Source: Thiohalospira halophila DSM 15071
GTDB taxonomy: Bacteria > Pseudomonadota > Gammaproteobacteria > Thiohalospirales > Thiohalospiraceae
Direction of reading: 5' to 3'
NCBI RefSeq assembly: GCF_900112605.1
Contig: NZ_FOMJ01000006.1
Span: 1 to 64,000 of the forward strand
Length of the DNA: 64,000 nt
The position numbers and the translations under genes were made by a program. Position 1 is the stretch's first letter. Every line of letters begins with the position of its first letter. Shown here piece by piece: positions 54,455 through 59,803 of this stretch. The notes under the pieces were generated by a model. That model did no database searches. It was given only the letters and a program-made list of their open reading frames with translations, and was not told the origin of the DNA.

Positions 54455-54565
54455 GCTTGAAAAGTGGGTTCGCCCACCCTCGGGATCGGTTTTCTCGGCA
54501 GCGCGGCTGCGCTAGGATTCGCTATGTTTCCTCATGCAGAGCGCGACCCGGTCGCGGAGATCCCC

Positions 54566-55561
54566 ATGGAACAAGCGCAATCCCCCGCCCTCATCGACCC
54601 CTTCGGCCGGCGCATCGAGTACCTGCGGGTCTCCGTCACCGACCGCTGCGATCTGCGCTGCAACTACTGCATGCCGCGCGGCTTCCGGGACTTCGAGGTC
54701 CCGGAGCACTGGCTGACCACGGCGGAGCTGGAGCGCATAGTGGGGGCCTTCGCCCGGCTGGGTACGCGCCGGGTACGGCTAACCGGCGGGGAGCCCCTGG
54801 TGCGCAAGGAGCTCCCCGACATGGCCCGGGCCATCGCCAGCCTGCCGGGGATCCGCGACCTGTCCCTGTCCACCAACGCCACCCGGCTGCGCCGCCACGC
54901 GGAGGAGCTGCACGCGGCCGGGGTGGACCGGCTCAATGTCAGCCTGGACACCCTGGACCCGGAGCGCTTCAAGGCCATCACCGGCGGTCGGCTGGACAAG
55001 GTCCTGGACGGGCTGGAGGCGGCACGGGACGCCGGTCTGGGGCCGGTGAAGATCAATACCGTGGTCCAGCGCGGCACCAACGACGACGAGCTGGACGGCC
55101 TGGTGGACTACTGCATCGAACGCGGCTTCACCCTGCGCTTCATCGAGACCATGCCGGTGGGCGATACCGGCCGCGAGGCCACCGACGACTACGTGGACCT
55201 GGCGGAGGTCCGGCGCGGCCTGGAGCAGCGCTTCGACCTGCTCCCGGCGGCCATGCCCGGCGGCGGGCCGGCCCGCTACGTCCAGGTGGCGGGGACCGAC
55301 GTGAAGATCGGCTTCATCACCCCGCTCTCCCAGCACTTCTGCGACACCTGTAATCGTGTCCGGCTGGGCGTCGACGGCACCCTCTACCTCTGCCTGGGGG
55401 ACGAGGCGACCTACGACCTGCGCACCCCGGTCCGCGAGGGGGCCAGCGATGCCGAGCTGGAGGCCCACATCCACGCCGCCATTGCCCACAAGCCGGAGCG
55501 CCACGAGTTCAACGACCGGCCGGAGAAGGTGGTCCGCTTCATGTCCATGACCGGGGGGTGA
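54566..55561 (+). CDS. moaA: GTP 3',8-cyclase MoaA
   Basis: A 331-residue radical SAM enzyme in the first step of molybdenum-cofactor synthesis. The SAM cluster cysteines are 28, 32 and 35 in TDRCDLRCNYCMPRGF. The C-terminal second cluster has CDTCNRVRLGVDG and LCLGDE. It ends with the GG tail typical of MoaA. Start MEQAQSPALI at 54566 is chosen over an upstream in-frame GTG. It is divergent from soeA, so one regulator could control both. Confidence 0.96.
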   Translation: MEQAQSPALIDPFGRRIEYLRVSVTDRCDLRCNYCMPRGFRDFEVPEHWLTTAELERIVGAFARLGTRRVRLTGGEPLVRKELPDMARAIASLPGIRDLSLSTNATRLRRHAEELHAAGVDRLNVSLDTLDPERFKAITGGRLDKVLDGLEAARDAGLGPVKINTVVQRGTNDDELDGLVDYCIERGFTLRFIETMPVGDTGREATDDYVDLAEVRRGLEQRFDLLPAAMPGGGPARYVQVAGTDVKIGFITPLSQHFCDTCNRVRLGVDGTLYLCLGDEATYDLRTPVREGASDAELEAHIHAAIAHKPERHEFNDRPEKVVRFMSMTGG

Positions 55562-55565
55562 GCCC

Positions 55566-56591
55566 TCACTCCCCGCCGGTGACCATCTCCAGCACCCGGG
55601 GCCGGACCTCGGCCTCCAGCCGCTCGGCGAGCTTGTCCAGCAGGCGCTGACGGGCGGTAGGCTCATCGGTGGCCGCGGCGCGCTCGGAGAGGGTCGCCCG
55701 GCCCCGGACCTCGCCGGCGGCATCCGCCAGGCTCAGCCCCAGGCGGCCCTCGTACCAGTGCCACCCCTCGCGCCGACCGCGGTCGGTGAGTACCAGCTCC
55801 GCCCGGAGGGTGTACTCCCCGTCCGCCGAGGTGGTGAAGCCGGCATTGCCCAGGGCGCCGCGCAGGGCGGCATCCATGCGGGCCGCCTCGTCCCCGGTCG
55901 CCACCGGGGTCAGGGTAACCGCCGCCAGGGCCTCGCGGTGGCGCGCCGCCAGCTCCGCCGTGCTCCAGGGGGAATCGACCCCGCGCCCGGTAGCCCCGAC
56001 CACCCGCAGGTGGGCCTGAAGCCCCTCCCGCGCCCGCTGGCGCTCCAGGGCCCGGCCCAGGGCGGCGACCCGCTCCAGGGAGTCCCGGGCGGCTTCCGCC
56101 GCCTCGACGTGCCGGCGGATGGCGCGGTCCAGGTCGCCGATCTCGCGGCGCAGGCGCAGGGCCGCCCGATTGCGGTCCAGAACCGCCAGGGCGTGATAGG
56201 CCCCCTCTTCCGGCGCGCGCCAGGTCTCGGCGATGGTCACCCCGGTGAGGACCTCCTCGCTGCGGGTCCGGATCCGGCTCTCCGCCTCCTGCTCCAGCTC
56301 CCCGGCCTCCAGCCGGGTCACGTCACGACTCTCCGACTCCACCCGGACCCGGAAGGATCGCGCCAGCTCGGCACGGGCCCGATCCCGGGCGGCCGCCAGG
56401 CTGTCGGCGCGGCCCGTCCCGGTGAGATAGGCCTCCCGCGGATAGTCGGCGGGCTCGCCGCCATCCACCCAGCCGGGCCGCGCCTGCGGGTCGGGCCCGG
56501 AGGCACAGCCCGCGACCACCGACAGCAGCAGCGCGAGTGACCACCCGCTAACGCGAGCCGGGTTCAGCCGGCTTCTCCGCTTTGTCCCCAT
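55566..56591 (-). CDS. LPP20-family lipoprotein with C-terminal extension
   Basis: A 341-residue lipoprotein. The signal ends in LLLSVVAGC with the lipidated Cys at 29. An LPP20-like domain follows (YLTGTGRADSLAAARDRARA and ELARSFRVRVESESRDV), then a long region with coiled-coil character (about 150-205) and a CsgG-like beta domain near the end. Its start overlaps the COG3014 gene by 44 nt. It is the last gene of a four-lipoprotein operon. The function of the group is unknown. Confidence 0.8.
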   Translation of the reverse strand: MGTKRRSRLNPARVSGWSLALLLSVVAGCASGPDPQARPGWVDGGEPADYPREAYLTGTGRADSLAAARDRARAELARSFRVRVESESRDVTRLEAGELEQEAESRIRTRSEEVLTGVTIAETWRAPEEGAYHALAVLDRNRAALRLRREIGDLDRAIRRHVEAAEAARDSLERVAALGRALERQRAREGLQAHLRVVGATGRGVDSPWSTAELAARHREALAAVTLTPVATGDEAARMDAALRGALGNAGFTTSADGEYTLRAELVLTDRGRREGWHWYEGRLGLSLADAAGEVRGRATLSERAAATDEPTARQRLLDKLAERLEAEVRPRVLEMVTGGE

Positions 56592-57903
56592 GTTGCATCC
56601 CTCCCACGCTCCCGGTTCCGGGGGCGATCCAGTGGTCGATAAGGAAGTAATACTCCCCCGCTCGCAGGCGGATATTCTCCACGGTCCGGCCCTCACGCCC
56701 GCCGAAGGTAGCGGTCAGGTCGTAGCGCCCCGGCGGCAGATCCAGCCAGGCCAGCCGGTAGCGCGCCGGCAGGGTCCGCCAGCTGCGCAGGTCGGCGCGC
56801 TCGCTGGCAAAACCGGCAATATTGACCGCCAGACCGGCCAGGGGGTGGGCCTCAGCGGCCTCGTCCACCGCGGCGTTCTTGGCCACGGAGCGGGCCAGGG
56901 CGCGGGCCGTGATGGCGCCCATGCGCTCCTCCAGCACCGTCCGGGCAATGGCGTCGACATCGGCGACCACCGCCGCCGGCGCTTGCTCCTCCCCGGCGGC
57001 GAGGGCGGCGCTCTCCAGCCGCCAGGGCCGGGAGCGATAGGCCGGCAGCGCGATCCGGTGGAGCTTGCCCTGGGCGTCCTGAACGTTGAGGGCGTTCTCC
57101 ACCTTCACCGGCGCCAGCCCCTCCCCGGTGACGAGGATCACGTGGGCCCGGCGGGCCTGCTCCGCCATGGTCCGCCAGTCGATGTCCCCGAAGGTCCGGC
57201 GATAGCCGGCATGCTCGTCGTCCAGGCCCAGGGCGTCGGTGAGCCGCAGCAGTGCCGCCTTCAGGCTCGGCGGCGGGTGGACCCCGATGGCGGCCTCCTG
57301 GCGCCGGTAGGCACGGTAGGCCTTGCGGTAGGCGATGAGGGCATCGGAGCGCTCCCCCAGGGCCTCGAAGAGGATCCCGGAGAGGTAGCGGGCAAAGGGG
57401 TCGGCGTCGTAGACGGAGCCCTCCGCCTCCGCCGCCAGCACCTGCAGTCGCAGGTCCACCTGTAGGGCCTCCACCCGCGCGGCGTCCCGCTGGCCCAGGT
57501 CGAGGTAGTTGAAGGCCTTCACCAGATGCAGCAGCACCTGCTCGTGGGGGGCGCCGACGTAGCTGGTCACCCCCTCGGCCATGGTGAGGCTGCCCAGGGT
57601 CTCGCTGACGCTGGTCACCCCCAGCTCCTCCATGAGCCCCTTGGCCCGCTCCAGGTCGGCATTGCTGCCGCGGTAGTCGCCGGTCATCCGCCGGAGCATG
57701 CCGCGCTCCAGGTGGTAGAGGATGGTGTCGGCCTCGCGCCCGCCCAGGGCTCCGTCTACCGCCTCCAGGGCCTGTTCCGGCTCGCCGGCGAGCAGGGCCT
57801 CTTCCACGGGCCCAAAGCGATCCGAGTGGGTCGCGCAGCCGCCGATGAACAGGACCGCCGCCAGCAGCCAGGGCACCAGCCCCATCGAGCTCGAGGGCCG
57901 CAC
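56548..57903 (-). CDS. COG3014 family lipoprotein
   Basis: A 451-residue lipoprotein with lipobox LFIGGC (Cys23). Tetratricopeptide-like helices (LEAVDGALGGREADTILYHL, given by EAVDGALGGREADTILY, and LERGMLRRMTGDYRGSNADL) occupy the N-terminal third. TMAEGVTSYVGAPHEQVLLH is a COG3014 signature. It lies between LpoB-like and LPP20-like genes. Its function is unknown; a scaffold for the neighbouring lipoproteins is possible. The alternative start at 57885 would keep the signal. Confidence 0.85.
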   Translation of the reverse strand: MRPSSSMGLVPWLLAAVLFIGGCATHSDRFGPVEEALLAGEPEQALEAVDGALGGREADTILYHLERGMLRRMTGDYRGSNADLERAKGLMEELGVTSVSETLGSLTMAEGVTSYVGAPHEQVLLHLVKAFNYLDLGQRDAARVEALQVDLRLQVLAAEAEGSVYDADPFARYLSGILFEALGERSDALIAYRKAYRAYRRQEAAIGVHPPPSLKAALLRLTDALGLDDEHAGYRRTFGDIDWRTMAEQARRAHVILVTGEGLAPVKVENALNVQDAQGKLHRIALPAYRSRPWRLESAALAAGEEQAPAAVVADVDAIARTVLEERMGAITARALARSVAKNAAVDEAAEAHPLAGLAVNIAGFASERADLRSWRTLPARYRLAWLDLPPGRYDLTATFGGREGRTVENIRLRAGEYYFLIDHWIAPGTGSVGGMQHGDKAEKPAEPGSR

Positions 57904-57910
57904 GGCGCGC

Positions 57911-58528
57911 TCAGGGCCGAAGGGCAGCGCCCTCGATGTACTTCTTGATCTTCTTCTGGCCCATCCAGACCTTGCGATTGTCGGCCAGGCTGATCATCTC
58001 CAGGTCCACCTGGTAGAAGCGGACCTGCTCCCGCCCCTCCCGGTCGATGATGGTGTTGATGGAGCCCAGGAGCATGTAGTCGGCCCCCAGTTCCTCGCCC
58101 ATGGCCTTGCGGGTGTCGGGACTGGCGTGGAGGTCCTGGTCGGCGCGCTCCTCGCGGATGGACTCGCGCTGCTCGGCCGAGGCAACGAACTCCACCCGAC
58201 CACTGTTGATGAGCTCGCGCTGGAGGTCGTTGATGAAGGTCCGGGTGTTGATGTGCTCGTGGCTGAGGTTGCGGACCTCGCCGACGATGACGGTGGGCCG
58301 CTCGCCGGTCTCCTGACGGTGGTTCGCCAGCCAGGGCCGGGCCAGGGCATCGGCCACCATCTCCTCGGCCACCAGGCGGGAATCGGTATCGTTCCAGCGG
58401 CCGGAGAGGTCCCGGGTCTCGTCGGTGTCGATGCGCTCGACGGTCTTGCCGCAGCCCCCGACGGTGAGCAGCAGCGTCAGGGTCAGTAGCAGGGACAGGG
58501 TTGCCCGGGTTGCGGTCACGGTAGACAC
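57911..58528 (-). CDS. LpoB-family lipoprotein (penicillin-binding-protein activator type)
   Basis: A 205-residue lipoprotein with lipobox LTVGGC (Cys26) and the LpoB-type alpha/beta domain (RPTVIVGEVRNLSHEHINTR, then FINDLQRELINSGRVEFVAS and LGADYMLLGSINTIIDREG). Enterobacterial LpoB activates PBP1b from the outer membrane. In this cluster it is accompanied by LPP20 and COG3014 partners, not by a PBP gene, so a distinct role is possible. It is 7 nt from COG3014. Confidence 0.85.
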   Translation of the reverse strand: MSTVTATRATLSLLLTLTLLLTVGGCGKTVERIDTDETRDLSGRWNDTDSRLVAEEMVADALARPWLANHRQETGERPTVIVGEVRNLSHEHINTRTFINDLQRELINSGRVEFVASAEQRESIREERADQDLHASPDTRKAMGEELGADYMLLGSINTIIDREGREQVRFYQVDLEMISLADNRKVWMGQKKIKKYIEGAALRP

Positions 58529-58537
58529 GGTTTCTCC

Positions 58538-59110
58538 TTATTCCTCTTTCTGGACAGTACGGTCGAACAGGCGCCCGCCCCGCTCCTGCAGGTGGTCGCG
58601 CAGGCCGGGGGCCATGGCCTCCACTCCCGCCGTGGTATCGGCTACCTCCTGCAGGCGCAGCTCGGCCAGGGCGTAGACCGTATCGGTCTCGGGGTTCCGC
58701 CAGCGGCCGATGATGCGGGCGCCGGCGAGGTTTAGCTCCGTCACGGCCTCGATCTGGCGGCTGATGCTGGCCTCGTCCACGGCGCGCTCGCCCTCGCCAG
58801 CGCGGGCACGGTAGTCGCTGGAGACCACCTCCATGTAGGCGGAGAGGGCGCGCGCGAGCTTGGCCCGAGCACGGTTGTCGGCGGTCTCGATCTGCAAGGA
58901 GCGATCGCCCATGGCCGGGGCCTGCCCCACGCCGTGGAAGAGGCGGCTGTCGCCGTCACGAAGCGGGCCAGTGCCCTGATTCACCCAACCCGGTGCCCCT
59001 TCGATTCCCAGGTCACTCTCCACCGAGCGCATGCTTCCGCAGGCGGCCACGGCCAGCGCCAGCAGGGCCACGAGGCCGGTTCGCAGGTGGTGCTGTAGGG
59101 CGTGCTGCAT
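58538..59110 (-). CDS. LPP20-family lipoprotein
   Basis: A 190-residue lipoprotein with lipobox LAVAAC (Cys24). An LPP20 domain covers most of it: APGWVNQGTGPLRDGDSRLF, FHGVGQAPAMGDRSLQIET and ADNRARAKLARALSAYMEVV. It begins the four-gene run, 9 nt before the LpoB-like gene, with GGAGGGAAGTC upstream. LPP20 proteins are surface or periplasmic lipoproteins of unknown function. Confidence 0.85.
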   Translation of the reverse strand: MQHALQHHLRTGLVALLALAVAACGSMRSVESDLGIEGAPGWVNQGTGPLRDGDSRLFHGVGQAPAMGDRSLQIETADNRARAKLARALSAYMEVVSSDYRARAGEGERAVDEASISRQIEAVTELNLAGARIIGRWRNPETDTVYALAELRLQEVADTTAGVEAMAPGLRDHLQERGGRLFDRTVQKEE

Positions 59111-59196
59111 GACTTCCCTCCCCTCCGGGACCTGTCCCGATAATTGGGTCTCGGTCGTCCATTTGCAACAAGGAGGGACACCGTATCGTCGGGCCG

Positions 59197-59225
59197 TTGG
59201 GTGGCGCCTCCCCGACCGCTATAAT
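59197..59225 (+). promoter_or_regulatory. Promoter of ppa
   Basis: A perfect sigma-70 -10 TATAAT (59220-59225) lies 51 bp before the ppa start. TTGGGT (59197-59202) at 17 bp spacing serves as a weak -35. Confidence 0.75.
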
Positions 59226-59275
59226 GCGCTTTTCCAGTATCGCCGCAACCGCCCAACCAGCAACGGGAGCAACCC

Positions 59276-59803
59276 ATGAATCTGGACAATCTGCCCGCCG
59301 GCAAGTCGGTGCCGGACGACGTCAACGTGGTCATCGAGATCCCGGCCGACAGCGCGCCGGTGAAGTACGAGGTGGACAAGGACTTCGGCGGCCTCATGGT
59401 GGACCGGCTCATGCCCACCGCCATGTTCTACCCGGCCAACTACGGCTTCATCCCCCACACCCTGGCCGATGACGGCGACCCCGTGGACATGCTGGTGGTT
59501 ACCCCCCATCCGCTGGTCCACGGCTCGGTGATCCGCGCGCGGCCGGTGGGCGTGCTCAAGATGAGCGACGAGGAGGGCGAGGATGCCAAGCTCATCGGTG
59601 TGCCGGTTAGCAAGCTCTCCCCCCTGTACGACCACGTCCAGTCCCCCGACGACCTGCCGCAGCTCCTGCGCGACCAGCTGGTCCACTTCTTCGAGCACTA
59701 CAAGGATCTGGAGAAGGGCAAGTGGGTGCGAGTGGACGGCTGGGAGGGCCTGGACTCCGCCCGGGCCGAGATCGAGGCCTCGGTGAAGCGCGCCCAGGGT
59801 TGA
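59276..59803 (+). CDS. ppa: Inorganic pyrophosphatase
   Basis: A 175-residue family I soluble pyrophosphatase, the usual bacterial length. The metal-binding motif [10 protein letters not shown] and substrate residues in [18 protein letters not shown] are present, and [14 protein letters not shown] is near the C-terminus. It drives biosynthesis by hydrolysing PPi. It is divergent from the lipoprotein cluster and has a strong promoter. Confidence 0.97.

Follow-up and report, generated by a model that had tools for sequence, protein, structure and literature searches.

In the genome of Thiohalospira halophila DSM 15071, we analysed a 64,000-nucleotide stretch of contig NZ_FOMJ01000006.1 (positions 1 to 64,000; the window), which carries an operon of four lipoprotein genes on its minus strand. 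The operon encodes a short LPP20-family lipoprotein (LPPs), an LpoB-like lipoprotein, a TPR lipoprotein, and a long LPP20 lipoprotein (LPPL), and it forms a real and widely conserved module that is inherited as one unit. We propose, tentatively and with a confidence somewhat short of even, that the operon is an outer-membrane-anchored adaptor module controlling local peptidoglycan remodelling and related to E. coli ycfL-lpoB. The TPR protein would be the adaptor, docking peptidoglycan enzymes and above all hydrolases (such as lytic transglycosylases or amidases), and the LpoB-like and LPP20 proteins would serve as its co-regulators and anchors, with a short linker that would hold the LpoB-like protein near the outer membrane. 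On this view, E. coli ycfL-lpoB would represent a slimmed-down offshoot of this family, one that acquired its long linker later and became specialised for contact with PBP1B. The four genes, with lengths in amino acids (aa) and the residue at position +2 after the lipobox cysteine, are:

58538..59110, minus strand: LPPs, short LPP20-family lipoprotein, 190 aa, gene 1 of the operon; lipobox AVAAC, +2 G
57911..58528, minus strand: LpoB-family lipoprotein, 205 aa, GTG start, short linker; lipobox TVGGC, +2 G
56548..57903, minus strand: TPR lipoprotein, 451 aa, GTG start; lipobox FIGGC, +2 A
55566..56591, minus strand: LPPL, long LPP20 lipoprotein, 341 aa, gene 4 of the operon; lipobox VVAGC, +2 A

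From 59110 to 55566, the genes follow one another head to tail in this order, with 9 nucleotides (nt) between LPPs and the LpoB-like gene, 7 nt between the LpoB-like and TPR genes, and a 44-nt overlap of TPR and LPPL. An earlier note on this DNA had described four tightly spaced or overlapping lipoprotein genes in which two LPP20 proteins flank an LpoB-like and a TPR-like protein. This description held throughout: the open reading frames lie at the coordinates listed, all four products have a lipobox, PF02169 is found twice and PF13036 once, and a structural model of the third protein contains a TPR superhelix. For LPPL, the start is most likely the ATG at 56591 rather than the first GTG of the open reading frame (56696). 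Asp occupies position +2 in none of the four lipoboxes and in 0 of the 227 recognised across related loci, which suggests sorting to the outer membrane when the E. coli sorting rule is extended to these taxa.

With LpoB as the sole query, public genomes yielded at least 563 related stretches, of which we retained the best 80 loci; neighbouring genes were labelled by profiles made from six to eleven sequences each. These 80 loci come from Gammaproteobacteria, Gallionellales, Desulfuromonadales, Mariprofundaceae, and other taxa. The TPR gene came next after LpoB at 65 of the 67 loci with room downstream, and at 62 of the 67 both the TPR gene and LPPL were present. An LPPs homologue lay directly upstream of LpoB at 43 of the 74 loci with room on that side. 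Flanking genes were common to small subsets of loci only, so the unit holds together in different genomic places. In a class sample of 274 genomes, the TPR gene was found in 52 and LpoB in 60, with both in 51; one genome had the TPR gene without LpoB, and nine had LpoB without the TPR gene (Fisher p 8e-45, kinship ignored). The two genes were adjacent (within 1.2 kb) in 44 of the 51 genomes carrying both, with LpoB upstream, as in the window, in 25 and the TPR gene upstream in 19. Among these 19, 17 had a gap of 0.5-1.1 kb between the genes, and the gap protein in the tested case (L034) was YcfL (DUF1425). This synteny across loci and genomes makes the four-gene arrangement more than chance. 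The earlier note had asked for such a co-occurrence count and had read the genes as a likely multi-component outer-membrane lipoprotein complex; the conserved gene order, the joint presence of the TPR and LpoB genes, and the missing Asp residues support a conserved system of this kind. Individual loci vary: at L030:8381-9729, the short LPP20 gene is tandemly duplicated upstream of the operon, and L068 and L092 have LpoB and LPPL with no recognisable TPR gene between them.

The same genome contains a second, diverged cluster on contig C8 (L008:3266-10277), comprising a TPR protein, LpoB, LPPL, an SLT enzyme, a short LPP20 protein, and a protein of 522 aa. The enzyme carries the SLT domain of lytic transglycosylases (E 2.1e-21), and among the equivalogs it matches MltC best. 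This cluster type occurs in six further genomes of the class sample; one of these six clusters (L139) adjoins an Mltc_N/SLT enzyme. Apart from the MltC-like enzyme at second-type clusters, nothing in the genomic data links the module directly to peptidoglycan. The 522-aa exported protein matched no family, and homologues of it lie beside second-type clusters at L141:12043-15001 and L142:1100-3321, making it a candidate for an undescribed exported family. A transglutaminase likeness of this protein was an impression from its sequence that no library backed. Directly behind their signal peptides, the MltC-like enzyme and the 522-aa protein both begin with a charged helical segment, and the two segments resemble each other.

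LpoB is a textbook example of how the outer membrane controls cell-wall synthesis, and its evolutionary context has been little studied. The window's LpoB-like protein carries the LpoB domain (Pfam PF13036, E 2.6e-44) and misses the TIGR02722 equivalog cut-off, scoring 91.4 vs 110.55 bits. The LpoB of the second cluster also fails (96.6 bits), whereas E. coli LpoB (218) and one YcfL-linked LpoB (224) pass. The window protein is 19% identical to E. coli LpoB. Neither the window protein nor the second copy nor the YcfL-linked relatives have the 44-residue Pro-rich linker found in E. coli LpoB, and 14-17 residues separate the Cys from the DLSG motif across the loci. Linker loss alone cannot separate the two kinds of LpoB, because YcfL-linked LpoBs lack the linker and one of them passes TIGR02722. 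A profile search of this genome found no UB2H domain in a synthase (no match at 1e-8); an apparent UB2H match above the cut-off was rejected, as it proved to be Mfd (1151 aa), and the other hit was UvrB. The peptidoglycan synthases in the genome are one 903-aa frame with a transglycosylase domain and one MtgA-sized frame of 252 aa. LpoA, the known partner of PBP1A, was found. The connection to PBP1B suggested in the earlier note is thus not supported here: none of the organism's synthases bears UB2H, and its LpoB-like protein misses the equivalog cut-off and lacks the 44-residue linker.

The TPR protein had no match in Pfam or NCBIfam, and a sequence search of the PDB also gave none. Its AlphaFold2 model (predicted local distance difference test, pLDDT, 88.9; predicted template modelling score 0.87) shows a TPR superhelix (helices 26-238) followed by a C-terminal beta domain into which a helical hairpin (316-367) is inserted. 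The PDB matches listed by Foldseek for this model were mostly TPR proteins, with MamA first. The earlier note's label for this protein, COG3014, is unconfirmed, and we found no paper that uses it as a term.

LPPL matches LPP20 (PF02169) at 55.0 bits (E 1.1e-14; gathering cut-off 25.9), and LPPs barely passes (26.0 bits, E 1.3e-5); the LPPs profile also matches the H. pylori Lpp20 structure 5ok8 (3.2e-4). The top Foldseek PDB match of the LPPL structural model (pLDDT 90.7) was H. pylori HP1454 (4kzs, E 2.7e-6, 287 columns), with a template modelling score of 0.57 by target length, a root-mean-square deviation of 6.7, and 16% identity; the orientation of the domains may differ. According to this model, LPPL has a multi-domain fold like that of HP1454. 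Further matches were LptE of several species (~130 residues, E about 3e-5 to 1e-3) and GNA1162, with weaker ones to CsgG and PqiC; we take the LptE matches to cover the C-terminal part of the modelled protein. Elsewhere in the genome, at L009:5543-8260 (contig C6, 203542-206259), there is a fifth LPP20-like lipoprotein, which alone scores 24.6 bits, just below the cut-off. Downstream of it lies a gene for a 680-aa PEGA-domain protein, and the two are possibly another envelope pair.

For the adaptor reading, we count the conservation of the unit, the lytic transglycosylase of the second cluster, the lack of a UB2H synthase, and the short linker. We also count the TPR lipoprotein HP0018 of H. 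pylori, a reported homologue of Cj0089, which co-precipitates MltD and AmiA and whose loss leads to less helical cells, hypervesiculation, and vesicle chains (PMC11394524). A precedent is E. coli NlpI, an outer-membrane lipoprotein that scaffolds peptidoglycan hydrolases with synthases (PMC7049810). In this reading, the window's TPR protein may recruit hydrolases. Several points weigh against this reading. No peptidoglycan gene was a regular neighbour of window-type clusters in the best 80 of at least 563 loci. A physical complex of the four lipoproteins is our inference. HP0018 and Cj0089 are candidate members of the window's TPR family, agreeing with it in length, architecture, and gene partners as described in papers. 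In the one direct test of relatives, HP1454 and HP1456 (Lpp20) did not interact with each other in a two-hybrid assay, and in the tests made, neither flagella nor barrier nor motor changed when hp1456 was deleted (PMC11756786). Finally, UB2H synthases are enriched with the window arrangement, occurring in 22 of 25 such genomes vs 160 of 274 (58%; p 0.001, kinship ignored).

This enrichment also favours a reading in which the LpoB-like protein activates a synthase, as in E. coli, but a different one here (MtgA or the 903-aa frame), whose activity the other lipoproteins would tune. The LpoB-domain match of the window protein is in keeping with such a role, as is the Psychromonas clusters' position beside a HIT-family gene, since E. 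coli lpoB sits beside hinT. However, the best UB2H matches of this genome are Mfd and UvrB, the LpoA present belongs with PBP1A, the equivalog cut-off is missed, and a short linker makes the reach to an inner-membrane synthase doubtful, so that we regard activation of a synthase as unlikely here, although it deserves to be kept in mind. Among the 30 genomes behind the fetched loci, 20 had a full UB2H match (short 43-residue matches of the Mfd type were set aside), and of the 10 without one, several are incomplete metagenome genomes. The unit is thus enriched with UB2H synthases elsewhere yet not dependent on them; since such synthases are common but not universal among carriers, a PBP1B link elsewhere is possible and not required.

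The LPP20 proteins could instead assemble into a ring- or disk-shaped periplasmic structure beneath the outer membrane, as FlgP and FlgT do in flagella. H. pylori Lpp20 has an SHS2-like fold in common with both (PMC12222027), and HP1454 and HP1456 bind FapH and FlgP, the latter in two-hybrid tests (PMC11756786). Ring formers of the family carry an insert between the SHS2 helix and the second strand, which in FlgP is a beta-hairpin (PMC12222027). We consider such a scaffold improbable, because the LPPL model has a helix (residues 100-117) at that position, and the motor was indifferent to the loss of hp1456. The recurrent neighbours in the best 80 loci included no recognised flagellar gene. An accessory role in outer-membrane assembly or lipid transport, with the C-terminal domain of LPPL acting like LptE or PqiC, would account for the Foldseek matches to LptE, GNA1162, CsgG, and PqiC. 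These matches span a single ~130-residue domain of a common alpha/beta fold, and the same neighbours included no recognisable lpt, pqi, mla, or csg gene, which leaves this role little credence. We give less still to the idea that the four are merely co-transcribed lipoproteins with separate tasks and form no complex. The short LPP20 gene is missing upstream at 31 of 74 loci, the TPR or LPPL gene is absent from a few, and HP1454 and HP1456 do not interact, all as expected if the proteins worked apart; but gene order is conserved and overlaps are frequent across distant taxa, and the co-occurrence of the TPR and LpoB genes is near-complete. Curli-like export was rejected, as the CsgG match is weak and limited to one domain and no such genes were recognised nearby; nothing points to the secretion assembly that the earlier note had also considered. 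A defence system was discarded likewise, with no PADLOC match.

On either side, the locus is delimited as follows:

59111..59275, no strand assigned: intergenic stretch between the operon and the divergent ppa; probable site of the operon promoter, judged from the gene layout
59276..59803, plus strand: ppa, inorganic pyrophosphatase (Pfam PF00719, E 2.5e-56), divergent neighbour outside the operon
54464..55561, plus strand: moaA (Pfam Mob_synth_C and Radical_SAM), convergent neighbour that bounds the operon and lies outside it

Because the four genes are flanked by ppa, which diverges from them, and by moaA, which converges on them, we read them as a self-contained operon. Neither a sigma-70 consensus promoter nor a terminator consensus was found at the operon ends or in 59111..59275.

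The module is a variant of known systems. The earlier note had regarded the partners of the LpoB-like protein as of unknown function. This stands for the module as a unit, of whose function we found no description in the literature searched, but not for its parts, which have known relatives studied in H. pylori (HP1454, Lpp20/HP1456, HP1457, and HP0018) and C. jejuni (cj0089-cj0091). In H. pylori, HP1454 and HP1456 are encoded in one operon (PMC11756786), HP1457 is a reported homologue of LpoB, and in many enterohepatic Helicobacter the hp0018 homologue adjoins the LpoB homologue hp1457 (PMC11394524). In H. pylori itself, however, HP0018 is encoded apart, and sequence similarity of the set to the window proteins is weak. 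C. jejuni cj0089-cj0090-cj0091 are co-transcribed lipoprotein genes (453, 122, and 207 aa; PMC3100323) that likewise combine a TPR protein, a small lipoprotein, and an HP1457 orthologue (PMC3100323; PMC11394524). They differ from the window in having no named LPP20 protein and the TPR gene first, and Cj0089 was recovered in the inner-membrane fraction. For HP0018, HP1457, and the Cj proteins, the comparison with the window proteins was made through papers alone. NlpI offers a functional analogy only; to our knowledge, it is not encoded in a lipoprotein operon of the window kind.

E. coli ycfL-lpoB resembles the module in encoding an outer-membrane lipoprotein with the PF13036 domain, and its YcfL-linked relatives likewise adjoin a TPR gene; unlike E. 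coli, the window genome lacks the UB2H target, and the window has LPP20 partners in place of YcfL. We hypothesise that the window arrangement is ancestral to ycfL-lpoB and that change ran in this direction. LpoB may by origin belong to an ancient machine of outer-membrane lipoproteins (a TPR adaptor, LpoB, and LPP20 or YcfL) that worked on peptidoglycan without PBP1B, its enterobacterial activation of PBP1B coming later, enabled by the new linker; we hold this broader view as a possibility that we would not yet back. With an LpoB relative retained where no UB2H synthase is present, the role of LpoB before PBP1B becomes testable, and the comparison brings separate literatures together, uniting E. 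coli ycfL-lpoB, H. pylori Lpp20, HP1454, HP1457, and HP0018, and C. jejuni cj0089-91 as one candidate system whose partners can be tested.

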